From positions 9,851,742-9,915,741 of the forward strand of contig NC_135565.1 of the NCBI RefSeq assembly GCF_964340395.1: a DNA stretch of 64,000 nt. The letters are read 5' to 3'. This DNA is from Glandiceps talaboti. Its lineage: Eukaryota; Hemichordata; Enteropneusta; Spengelidae. Position 1 is the first letter of the stretch. Each line of letters opens with the position of its first letter. Under the pieces are notes generated by a model that was not told the DNA's origin, did not search any database, and worked only from the letters and a program-made list of their open reading frames with translations. Shown here one piece after another: positions 15,852 to 33,520 of the stretch. Made by a program: the position numbers and the translations under genes.

Positions 15852-15969
15852 ATGAAAGTGTGTGCCACCGTGTTTGTAAGTTGGTGTATTATTTTACTAT
15901 CAGTCTCTGGATGGTCATCGGCTCAGCAAGGACGACGAAATGATGGCGGAAACCAAAACGAGGAGTCAG
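15852..15969 (+). CDS. Nuclease fusion exon 1: signal peptide
   Basis: Encodes MKVCATVFVSWCIILLSVSG then WSSAQQ, a short n-region, a hydrophobic core and an Ala-x-Ala-like end near residue 24, followed by a Gly/Asn/Glu-rich segment. An in-frame ATG 45 bp upstream (15807) would bury the signal behind DKDFPCPQQ, so 15852 is preferred. The donor GTAATA is at 15970, phase 1. Confidence 0.75.
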
Positions 15970-30900: not shown

Positions 30901-33520
30901 TGAATGCATAATAAAATGTATATGTAGAAATCACGTCTTAATATTAGGATTACAACGCTGTACCATTGAATTTGCTGGGGAAAGCATGTACAGATCAATG
31001 GGCAATGAAGTTTTTGTGTGCTCGACAGATCAGCAACAGGCCTCAAGTGAATTTGCGACTGCAAATACACACGCCGGGTACCTGTATGACAGGGGTCATC
31101 TCACACCATCTGGTATCATGAATGATGAATTGTACAAAATGGGAGCAACGTTTACAGTGACCAACGCAGCAGCTCAGATTGGCGTAGACTTCAATCAAAG
31201 AGAATGGCAATTGCTGGAATGTTTACTGCGAACGTACGTTTGGTATATGCGTCAAGATAACACTGGAGCTCTACTTCATTCAGACATATACCTCATCACT
31301 GGAACACGCCCAAACACCGTTACCAATATACCAGGAACTGCGTAAGTAATAATGCTTGCAAATTGACTTTTGACTTTTTGGTGAAAATTTCGAGTAGTCT
31401 GTACATACACTAACTTAAATTTGTTAAGGTACTAGCAATTGATAATAATAATAATTAAATAAATCTTATATATGATGATGATAATAATAATAATATTATA
31501 TAATAATAAAAATAATGTTTATAGATTTTCATGGCCTCTGGACCATATACAACGTAAGAAATGTACAGATATATCAAAGTCACATTACATTAGTTGAAAT
31601 AAATTATATACTAGTATTGCATTATTTCATTCACGTCATTTACTAGTAATTGTCAAACTAATCAAAGGCTCTTAAATCAAAATATAATGACAAAAAATAA
31701 GACGGTATTTATTTCTAGGGCTATGATAGTTATAATAGCAAGTTTCCGTTGCAAGAGGATTCGTCAAACCGAATCGAATGGATAATTCTCCAAATAGTAT
31801 CAGACCAAATTGTTTCTACATGTACATTGGATCTTCTTGCAACCGGTAACAGGACAACTGCCCCCCGGACAACTGCCCCCCGGACAATTGCCCCCGGACA
31901 ATTGCCCCCGAAGGACAACTGCCCCCCGGACAATTGCCCCCCGGACAACTGCCCCCGAACGAAAAAAAACTAGTATTACAGATGTACGGGTTTGTCATTC
32001 ATTAAAAAGTCACCGTCGGCAACTTACCGCCGCAATTTGCGTACATTATACTCACTAAACACAAACACGAAGTCATTTTTTTACTGGAAAAGATTTATTT
32101 ATTATCAGTTCAATACAAAATATACAGGTAACAAGATAGAAAACGAGTCAAAAGTAGAAAAAATATTGAGACTCAGAATGTACATTCTCGTAAGACTTTG
32201 GTGACAGTAAATGGTGACTCGGCTCGGTTTATCATGATCAGCCAGTGTTTAAAACTGTATTGTGGGCTATTCCCCAAAGAAAATCTAGCACGTGACGATT
32301 TTCAAAATCTTGCACTATTGCATGGATTCTGGCTGCAGAATCTTGATACTGTCGACGTTGTGGTTGCGCTGATTCACCGGCAATCATTTGGTTGATGACG
32401 ACGTTGTTAAGTGCCTGCTCTCGTTTCAGAATATTGAGATTGGTTGTGTAGATTCCATTGTATTGGAAGTATTCTTAAAGTGAGAATTAAACATCCAGAA
32501 ACACACTAGCACTCGGGTAGGTGATTCTGGCAAGCCGAAATCGCTTCTCAGTCGTGACTAATTCCCGACTTGGACCTGAACGATCCCGTACAAGAGTATG
32601 AGAGTGTGGGTGCTAGAGTGCAACGTTAGAACTATATCCATACTTATACCGTTCAACTCTACGACTCACAACACCTGTATATGATATTGAATGACAAACC
32701 CGTACATCTGTAATACTATTTTTTTCGTTCGGGGGCAGTAGTCCGGGGGCAGTTGTCCTTCGGGGGCAGTTGTCCGGGGGCAATTGTCCGGGGGGCAGTT
32801 GTCCTTCGGGGGCAATTGTCCGGGGGCAATTGTCCGGGGGGCAGTTGTCCGGGAGCAGTTGTCCTAGAATCCTTGCAACCCACTTAAACTTTCTTCGGGC
32901 GGTTATATAAAGACATAGTCTTCGCATCAGTTACCTTTTGTTCTCCCCTGTGCGTCCTAATGTGGTTGTATTCTGGAACATTCTGTCAATGCAAGTGGTA
33001 CTACAACATAATTTACACCAATTGTGTAGCAAAACTCAGTAATCAAAATATTAAAAGATTTCAAGTTGTCACTTTATTATTCACAAATTTATGTTAGTTT
33101 CTCTCTCATTTAATTGTCACGATATTTAGGTTGACTGACCCGGAATATTATTGGACGGCAATGTGTGATCCAGAGAGGAGAGTATCAGTAGCCTTTATGG
33201 GAACTAATGCAAATCCATGGCCCCACCCATCCCGTATTACGACTTTCGGAGACCTAACAGAATTCCAGGATTGGTTATGGGGAGCGGGAACAGTTAAGGA
33301 AATATTTCCAGGAAAATTCGCCGACTGTATCTTACATGCGACAACACTAAACTTACAAAGTATACCATTAACAATGAGTTGTTATAACCCCGCCCATGGT
33401 CTTCCCCATGCAATCAATATGCAGACAATGTCAAATCGATGGCGTGTAGTAATCCTTCTTGATAGAGGAGTACGTGTGGTAAGGGGATTCCTGAACCGTG
33501 TCTTTAGGAATTTCTTTTAG
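15852..33520 (+). CDS. Secreted DNase II-like / ENDOD1-like endonuclease fusion, 12 exons, 1240 aa
   Basis: Exons 15852-15969, 17187-17899, 18892-19429, 22534-22948, 24104-24363, 25344-25544, 26035-26166, 26341-26560, 26962-27083, 28921-29139, 30948-31341 and 33130-33520. All have AG/GT borders, all phases match, and the total of 3723 nt is 1241 codons including stop. The ATG at 15852 opens a signal peptide. Order: DNase II-like module (about residues 44-427), acidic (EGDT)3 linker (about 458-469), a second stretch that starts like DNase II (AWLIYKPP) and becomes unrecognisable (480-790), then an ENDOD1-like DNA/RNA non-specific endonuclease (793-1240). Both DNase II HxK motifs look lost, while the C-terminal domain keeps DRGH. 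The expected role is extracellular or endolysosomal nucleic-acid cleavage. Possible polyadenylation signal AATAAA at 33994. The gene model is strong, module identities good, function inferred. Confidence 0.82.
16968..17050. repeat. (GT)n microsatellite
   Basis: About 40 GT dinucleotides with two interruptions, in intron 1 of the nuclease fusion gene. A TA run and a (TC)n polypyrimidine tract follow, leading to the exon 2 acceptor at 17186. Confidence 0.95.
17187..19429 (+). CDS. Nuclease fusion exons 2-3: degenerate DNase II-like module
   Basis: Residues 40-456. DNase II belongs to the phospholipase D fold and uses two HxK motifs. Visible family signatures are VDWWLMYK near 58-65, LRGHS...GFLAVD near 137-150, GFWLVHNDIYFPP near 157-169, Cys near LCISI, VVCIGDME near 337-344 and GGVSGGLVC near 384-392 (normally an RGGG..C segment). 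At the first active-site position RGHxKG reads RGHSP, so Lys is replaced. In the second, the place about 13 residues before CIGD where HxK should stand reads Ala-Val-Val. The module is therefore probably not a nuclease and may bind DNA or act as a chaperone or inhibitory domain. It ends with RTKR-MKRK, a furin-like basic site. Confidence 0.7.
19653..20842. repeat. 28-bp minisatellite, about 42 copies
   Basis: Units built on CCAACTAACTTGATTCTAAA plus TAACCCAT span about 1.19 kb of the intron between exons 3 and 4 of the nuclease gene. The first dozen units are diverged (AACCTGATT, AAACCATCC, TATATAAACC). The central and right units are almost identical, indicating recent expansion or homogenisation. 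Confidence 0.97.
21082..21141. repeat. (CAA)n microsatellite
   Basis: ACAACAACA trinucleotide run with two CAT interruptions, next to a C9-A10 homopolymer junction, in intron 3 of the nuclease gene. Confidence 0.95.
22534..26166 (+). CDS. Nuclease fusion exons 4-7: EGDT linker and divergent middle region
   Basis: Residues about 457-792. Exon 4 begins with a 12-bp unit, GAAGGCGATACT, three times in tandem, giving an acidic EGDT repeat. It continues with ISCFALHCDKYDDYAWLIYK PP, similar in pattern to the start of the preceding DNase II-like module (QCRSRDDKVVDWWLMYKP). That suggests a second, highly decayed DNase II half. Exons 5-7 encode a Cys-rich, acidic region (FDWCPLEGCSYKI, HGGCTHKMFRTYQCLIYE) with no family I recognise. 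All internal borders from exon 5 on are phase 1, so exons 6 and 7 are each removable without frameshift. Confidence 0.6.
24390..25195. repeat. Compound microsatellite filling intron 5
   Basis: Successive blocks of CATA, CAAA, CATA, CAAA, CGCA, CATA, CATG, CATA, CAAA, TCTG/CTGA (24781-25010) and a pure CT tract of about 145 bp (25053-25195) occupy most of the intron between exons 5 and 6. Long open frames over it on both strands are periodic peptides (Thr-His-Ile-Tyr, Arg-Glu, Asp-Arg-Gln) and are not genes. Confidence 0.97.
26341..33520 (+). CDS. Nuclease fusion exons 8-12: ENDOD1-like NUC endonuclease domain
   Basis: Residues 793-1240. The domain opens with a basic REKRR, then CDRFFAGDSWP, ICQTC, NDYCFATLYNKQLRLPEYSAY, the pattern seen at the start of ENDOD1-type proteins (Cys-x2-FF-x-G, ICQ, FATLY, P-x-YSA). 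Exon 11 gives YDRGHLTPSGIMND with the catalytic His at about 1030, then ATFTVTNAAAQ and FNQREWQLLE with the Mg-binding Asn at about 1062. ILTG-like YLITGTRP follows, and exon 12 has PEYYWTAMCD...VAFMGTN. In the NUC fold (EndoG, ENDOD1) His of DRGH activates water and the Asn holds the metal; both are present, so activity is likely. Exon 10 (28921-29139) is a 73-residue phase 1-1 insertion inside the domain. Confidence 0.82.
27310..27783. mobile_element. Mutator-like MITE, copy 2
   Basis: A 474-bp relative of the element at 4004-4432. The left end begins CAATCTGATTAAAATCCG and the right end mirrors it. The long inverted repeats include TTTCTTTTTGGCTGTTAC and GTCGTTTGTTCTTTTGTGAG and their complements. 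The flanking 9-mers GCATCAATG and GCATCAACT match at 7 of 9 positions. It lies in intron 9 of the nuclease gene and contains no ORF. Confidence 0.78.
27851..28203. mobile_element. Foldback MITE, family A copy 1
   Basis: Terminal inverted repeats of about 140 bp begin ACAAATGCCATCATCAGACC and end with its near complement. Inner arms carry GACTTGTATTCCATTCC...GATAAGAACAGTTTTATGG. No certain target duplication. A second copy, incomplete at its left end, is at 41801-42107. Confidence 0.7.
29446..29541. repeat. (CA)n-(TA)n microsatellite
   Basis: A CA run followed by about 35 TA units in intron 10 of the nuclease gene; a likely cruciform or breakage-prone tract. Confidence 0.95.
30105..30465. mobile_element. 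Foldback element with about 180-bp arms
   Basis: The left arm (AGGATTGGGTATTTATTTCG ... CATGGCTTCCTACTTG ... AAGTCCTTTGTTTGTAA) is repeated in reverse complement on the right, with the centre near 30283 and practically no loop. About 80-85% arm identity by eye. It lies in intron 10 of the nuclease gene. Confidence 0.75.
31845..32871. mobile_element. 1.03-kb element with minisatellite inverted ends
   Basis: Both ends consist of 14-15-bp tandem units (GGACAACTGCCCCC / GGACAATTGCCCCC on the left, the complement on the right), followed inward by a matching non-repetitive part (CGAACGAAAAAAA...AGTATTACAGATGTACGGGT). The termini are flanked by the 9-bp direct repeat CTTGCAACC at 31836-31844 and 32872-32880. 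No ORF. The layout resembles Foldback-type elements. It lies in intron 11 of the nuclease gene. Confidence 0.75.

Follow-up and report, generated by a model that had tools for sequence, protein, structure and literature searches.

The gene examined here lies on the plus strand, at 15852-33520, of a 64,000-nucleotide stretch of the genome of the acorn worm Glandiceps talaboti (the window, contig NC_135565.1; positions are counted from its first letter). It is predicted to encode a long precursor in which a DNase II-family module without catalytic motifs and an apparently working nuclease domain of the NUC (Endonuclease_NS) family flank a Cys-rich middle module. The reading that we favor, at somewhat less than even odds (about 0.45), is that the product is a secreted NUC precursor processed by a convertase, in which the dead DNase II module would serve as a nucleic-acid-binding part or as a pro-domain.

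Gene structure and homologs

The refined model has 12 exons, from the start ATG at 15852 to a stop codon ending at 33520 (Table 1). All 11 introns have GT/AG ends, and their phases (1, 0, 1, 2, 1, 1, 1, 2, 1, 1, 2) keep one frame open, in agreement with an earlier examination of the letters of the window without database searches (the sequence-only reading), which had proposed 12 phase-matched exons in one open reading frame. The length of 1240 residues given there is replaced by 1213. Our own first model, of 1256 residues, was dropped; because it contained stretches missing in the homologs, the acceptors of exon 6 (to 25344) and exon 11 (to 31029) were shifted. At the exon 6 acceptor, the AG used by the paralog described below reads CG in the window copy. 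The weakest point of the model is the acceptor of exon 4 (22534), which sits in a fast-evolving linker, and the phase-1 junction there is also present in the paralog. The five DNase II strings, DRGH and FNQREW reported earlier are all in the product, and so is a hydrophobic leader where a signal peptide had been placed: a hydropathy scan, which is not a dedicated signal-peptide program, has its top window (1.98) at residue 3, and with a 19-residue maximum of 0.95 beyond residue 40 it found no transmembrane-like stretch after the leader.

When proteins were searched with the full model, three came up at E <= 0.01 from 3951 scored candidates, all hemichordate and each containing both domains: P0001, which is G. 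talaboti LOC144452848 (62% identity, 98% covered), and P0002 and P0003 from Ptychodera flava (35% and 33% identity to the window protein). The window gene's own protein was not in the output of this search. The same three were recovered with a four-row alignment among the 8000 best candidates; the distribution outside Glandiceps and Ptychodera rests on word-sharing candidates from one database. P0001-P0003, of which the first two are labelled 'isoform X2', match the same two Pfam families as the window protein and have the three-module order in common over 92-98% of their length. The earlier proposal that one precursor joins both families is thus borne out by four hemichordate genes, from two genera, that share the architecture, the two P. 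flava proteins being what the search turned up in another invertebrate. In the literature searched, on hemichordate DNase II, on the two Pfam families together, on Ptychodera flava nucleases and more broadly on such fusions, no account of the fusion was found among the papers listed.

The gene for P0001 maps to contig C26, in 12 ordered segments that place 1226 of 1229 codons, and the window gene is on C18, so that the window gene is a paralog of P0001. Intron phase is identical between the two at 11/11 junctions, and nine of the 11 introns align to within one residue of their counterparts, while the remaining two lie in unalignable linker or at a gap. With the P0001 protein, tblastn gave 11 collinear plus-strand matches covering exons 2 to 12, and when the genome (590 Mb in 47 contigs) was searched with P0003, the 13 matches all fell within the window gene and paralog loci.

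Two neighboring genes, one DNase II-like (exons 1-3, 458 residues, with a stop at 19435-19437) and one carrying the middle and NUC modules, might instead have been merged by prediction. An in-frame stop is indeed reached if exon 3 is left unspliced, the stretch separating exons 3 and 4 contains AATAAA/ATTAAA hexamers, starting with one at 19701, and an additional short isoform is conceivable. However, the annotation gives the paralog and each of the two P. flava proteins, on other contigs, as a single protein with its modules in this order, both Glandiceps copies show equal phase at the exon 3-4 junction, and a search with the stand-alone DNase II module found none among 5335 candidates at E <= 0.01, in a search that considered only lengths of 0.55-1.75 times the query, so that fused proteins could not show up in it. 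A merger of two genes is therefore highly improbable in our judgment; these comparisons indicate that the DNase II-NUC fusion is a single gene and not a chance merge.

A DNase II module without HxK motifs

The piece encoded by exons 2 and 3 matches Pfam DNase_II with E 4.2e-19 and 69.3 bits (cut-off 23) over its residues 9-243, and hhalign of the four hemichordate modules against 48 bacterial DNase II sequences gave a probability of 99.66 and E 2.7e-24 over 317 columns. Those references, which alone made up the full DNase II set aligned, are the open frames kept from 51 bacterial loci of a genome-contig scan, two short loci (68 and 177 residues) and one caught by the ambiguous-letter filter (L010) having been left out. 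With Endonuclease_NS also above its Pfam cut-off (see below), profile search finds both families named in the sequence-only reading. Against the family match counts the result for PDB sequences, among which a profile search hit the solved DNase II 5i3e at no better than E 0.52; the full model had seven matches to PDB sequences up to E 1, the best being CG8862 at 0.0058, and no DNase II among them. NCBIfam gave no match.

In DNase2, each PLD half carries an HxK motif (PMC9208542). The corresponding GH[TSA]KG and [DN]H[AS]KW are both present in 48/48 bacterial references, and a motif scan over the whole module found H-x-K in none of the four hemichordate modules. The place of the first motif reads PVSNG in all four, preceded by RGH in three and by RKP in P0003, and in a global profile alignment the place of the second falls in a gap, that is, a deletion. 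The same genome has, on contig C11, two DNase II-like regions whose motifs are intact, DHSKW being present in both and the first motif reading GHTKG in one region and AHAKG in the second; these two regions account for seven of the nine DNase_II Pfam matches of the genome. In the hemichordate Saccoglossus, DNase2b adjoins Uox (PMC9208542).

As judged by these residues, the DNase II module appears to be catalytically dead, and the earlier picture of it as a second working nuclease does not hold up. One could still imagine two working nucleases, with the DNase II part acting through an altered active site, considering the strong family membership, the strong purifying selection on the module and the histidine of RGH kept in three of the four. 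Set against this, H-x-K is missing in all four modules together with the whole second-motif stretch, and two HxK motifs are treated as requisite (PMC9208542; Schafer 2007, by its title as cited in PMC11430429); we consider such activity improbable. Among the DNase II-like proteins of Trichinella spiralis, a predicted active site is reported for one of 125 predicted genes (PMC4148230), and dead DNase II relatives therefore have precedent.

The NUC module and the convertase-type sites

The exon 8-12 piece matches Pfam Endonuclease_NS with E 9.2e-12 and 45.5 bits (cut-off 23), and P0001, P0002 and P0003 match it with E 1.6e-11, 3.1e-14 and 6.6e-21. In the alignment H1003, N1025, Q1029, N1035 and E1043 are kept in 4/4; we take the histidine to be catalytic and the Asn and Glu residues to belong to the metal site. 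A four-sequence NUC profile searched against PDB found 19 distinct sequences at E <= 1, of which 18 bear nuclease names and one is a splicing factor (0.55); the best was CG8862 (3ism, E 3.9e-9), and EndoG chains and the extracellular endonuclease 1g8t (E 0.0015) were also found. The five Endonuclease_NS matches in the genome fall in three places, namely the window gene, its paralog and a gene on contig C5 that is EndoG/EXOG-like by eye. The NUC module thus looks alive, that is, it is apparently a working nuclease. Of the ENDOD1-like character that the sequence-only reading had given it, the Endonuclease_NS family and DRGH/FNQREW stand; the three transmembrane segments reported for ENDOD1 are not seen in the window protein. 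Motifs of the RICQTC, FATLY and PEYSAY type presumably resemble those of ENDOD1.

The four proteins together contain nine RX[KR]R sites, none of which falls within a conserved module. These convertase-type sites at the junctions had been overlooked before. One lies 15-16 residues ahead of the first NUC cysteine in 4/4, with differing letters (REKR, RVKR, RRRR, RRRR), and shuffling each protein put an RX[KR]R into the 30 residues preceding this cysteine in 0.9-1.3% of trials. Apart from these sites, the last 60 residues of P0002 are very basic (25 K/R, 0 D/E, compared with 7 and 8 K/R in the Glandiceps copies), a tail that could provide added nucleic-acid binding.

Constraint on the modules

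Identity between the Glandiceps paralogs is 78% in the DNase II module, 65% in the middle module, 63% in NUC and 28% in the linker; the corresponding values are 50-54%, 28-30%, 32-37% and 8-22% for Glandiceps against P. flava, and 46%, 39%, 39% and 19% for P0002 against P0003. The ratios of nonsynonymous to synonymous substitution (dN/dS) between the Glandiceps paralogs, by a Nei-Gojobori count, are 0.15, 0.16, 0.24 and 0.49 in the same order, and these are rough since dS is 0.88-1.77. All three modules are under purifying selection, with the tightest constraint on the one that has no catalytic motifs; in every pair compared its identity is the highest.

This ranking bears on two further possibilities. 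The DNase II and middle modules might be a pro-region only, which would aid folding, hold NUC inactive and be discarded after the convertase cut. Such a role would fit the N-terminal position of both modules and the RX[KR]R sites found at module junctions. Discarded pro-regions, however, are usually faster evolving, and the DNase II module is better conserved than NUC, both between the paralogs (78% against 63%) and toward P. flava; we find a pure pro-region doubtful, although it deserves serious thought. Alternatively, the precursor might be a nucleic-acid sensor or scavenger, with minor NUC activity, whose main task is to capture nucleic acid outside cells, either for uptake or for signalling in immunity, as the strongest constraint falling on the module without catalytic motifs and the basic tail of P0002 would suggest; with the NUC catalytic residues kept in 4/4, we regard this as unlikely.

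The middle module

The conserved, Cys-rich module of exons 4-7, likewise overlooked by the sequence-only reading, matched no Pfam family in any of the four members, and its one match among PDB sequences, a branching enzyme (E 0.023 over 41 positions), is taken as chance. The likeness of its YAWLIYKPP to DWWLMYKPS raised a second DNase II domain as a candidate, which was rejected, the hhalign probability being 1.3 with the hemichordate DNase II modules and 0.3 with the bacterial DNase II sequences. A structure model from a three-row alignment had a predicted local distance difference test score (pLDDT) of 46, too poor for use; Foldseek with it found nothing at E <= 0.001, and the best hits, antibody-type immunoglobulin folds (E 1.3e-3, template modelling score 0.22 by query), are not used as evidence.

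A possible mechanism

Let us suppose, then, a convertase-processed NUC precursor with a dead DNase II module. One gene would give a precursor composed of the leader, the DNase II-family module, the Cys-rich middle module and NUC. The precursor would be secreted, and a furin-like convertase would cut it at the conserved RX[KR]R ahead of NUC. All cleavage of DNA and/or RNA would then be done by NUC, and the dead DNase II module would perhaps be retained for binding nucleic acid or a partner, so that the nuclease would be directed to nucleic acid outside the cell or in lysosomes, or be held in check until processing. A more specific version, which we put forward only tentatively, is that the dead DNase II has turned into a subunit dedicated to binding nucleic acid, which aims NUC, restrains it or does both within the same convertase-cut precursor, making a pseudoenzyme-guided nuclease, so far of acorn worms only, with a new Cys-rich middle domain. 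We infer an extracellular or phagolysosomal role for the precursor; a role in the gut, in mucus or in immunity would be a guess.

Several points weigh against this scenario. Besides the roughness of the dN/dS ratios, the four-letter NUC motif varies (DRGH in the window protein and P0002, DKGH in P0001, HRGH in P0003), P0003 has no RX[KR]R after its DNase II module where the other three have one, and the 4/4 counts are not independent because the four proteins are kin. A structure model of the DNase II module, built from a three-row alignment, had a pLDDT of 35 and is too poor for use.

A dead nuclease joined to a live one of another fold, with the dead part the most constrained, would be an unusual and easily tested pseudoenzyme with a new job. 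Should that part bind nucleic acid without cutting it, the protein would show how a deuterostome turned a lysosomal enzyme into a device that targets or controls the clearance of nucleic acid.

Feature coordinates and neighboring elements

Table 1. Positions of the exons and motifs of the nuclease gene within the window
Feature	Position	Strand	Remarks
Exon 1: start codon and hydrophobic signal-peptide-like leader	15852..15969	+	donor CAG/GTAATA (exon/intron), phase 1
Exon 2: N-terminal half of DNase II-like module	17187..17899	+	Pfam DNase_II, hhalign
RGHSPVSNG, where DNase II has its first HxK motif (GHTKG), lysine no longer present	17477..17503	+	profile alignment
Exon 3: C-terminal half of DNase II-like module, then basic linker	18892..19429	+	
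CIGD in exon 3	19075-19086	+	
RTKRMKRK, furin-type sites after DNase II module	19342..19365	+	RX[KR]R in 3/4 proteins
In-frame stop met if exon 3 left unspliced	19435-19437	+	
Exon 4: acidic linker, then start of middle module	22534..22948	+	phase 1 as in paralog
Exon 5: Cys-rich middle module without known family	24104..24363	+	
Exon 6: middle module, acceptor moved	25344..25544	+	
Exon 7: end of middle module	26035..26166	+	
Exon 8: junction and start of NUC module	26341..26560	+	
REKR, furin-type site, 15 residues N-terminal to first NUC cysteine	26367..26378	+	
Exon 9: NUC module, PEYSAY motif	26962..27083	+	
Exon 10: NUC module	28921..29139	+	
Exon 11: NUC catalytic core	31029..31341	+	Pfam Endonuclease_NS
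Exon 11 residues DRGH; N; N; E	31088-31099; 31163-31165; 31193-31195; 31217-31219	+	
Exon 12: end of NUC module and stop	33130..33520	+	

Intron 11 contains, at 31851-32865, short repeats of the GGACAACTGCCCCC type in two inverted blocks, as in a foldback-type mobile element; its inverted arms (31864-31941 and 32776-32853) are 78 nt long and 100% complementary. Directly downstream of the nuclease gene lies a remnant of a non-LTR (long terminal repeat) element, with an RVT_1 match at 35310-35726 on the minus strand (E 4.8e-7) in broken frames and more frames at 34459-37021.

Elsewhere in the window, a 356-residue open frame at 11964-13031 on the minus strand matches Pfam RAG1_imp_bd at 23.9 bits (cut-off 23.3, E 3.7e-5) and marks a RAG1 N-terminal-like gene, which we presume is perhaps of the N-RAG transposon kind. 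A row of plus-strand open frames at 46974-58970 represents, by Pfam, the exons of a separate receptor-like gene, with CUB matches above the cut-off at 48173-48547 and 54807-55319 and below it at 46974-47246 and 52933-53274, Ldl_recept_a at 51498-51857 and PAN_4 at 58731-58970.

Comparison with known systems

The family match ties the first module to DNase II (PF03265), but DNase II is a lysosomal enzyme that consists of a single domain pair (PMC9208542), whereas here the HxK motifs are absent and two further modules are fused. The secreted DNase II-like proteins of Trichinella spiralis are likewise, with one exception among 125 predicted genes, without a predicted active site, and no NUC fusion appears among them in the available part of that report (PMC4148230). 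With EndoG, EXOG and the extracellular endonucleases the window protein shares the Pfam family NUC/Endonuclease_NS (PF01223), but unlike them it carries the domain at the C-terminal end of a long precursor, preceded by a convertase-type site. ENDOD1, too, has a leader and one NUC domain; it is a protein of 500 residues with three C-terminal transmembrane segments (PMC9126970), and the window protein has no such segments. The same module order as in the window protein is shared by P0001-P0003, named only 'uncharacterized protein', and P0001 shares the 12-exon layout as well.

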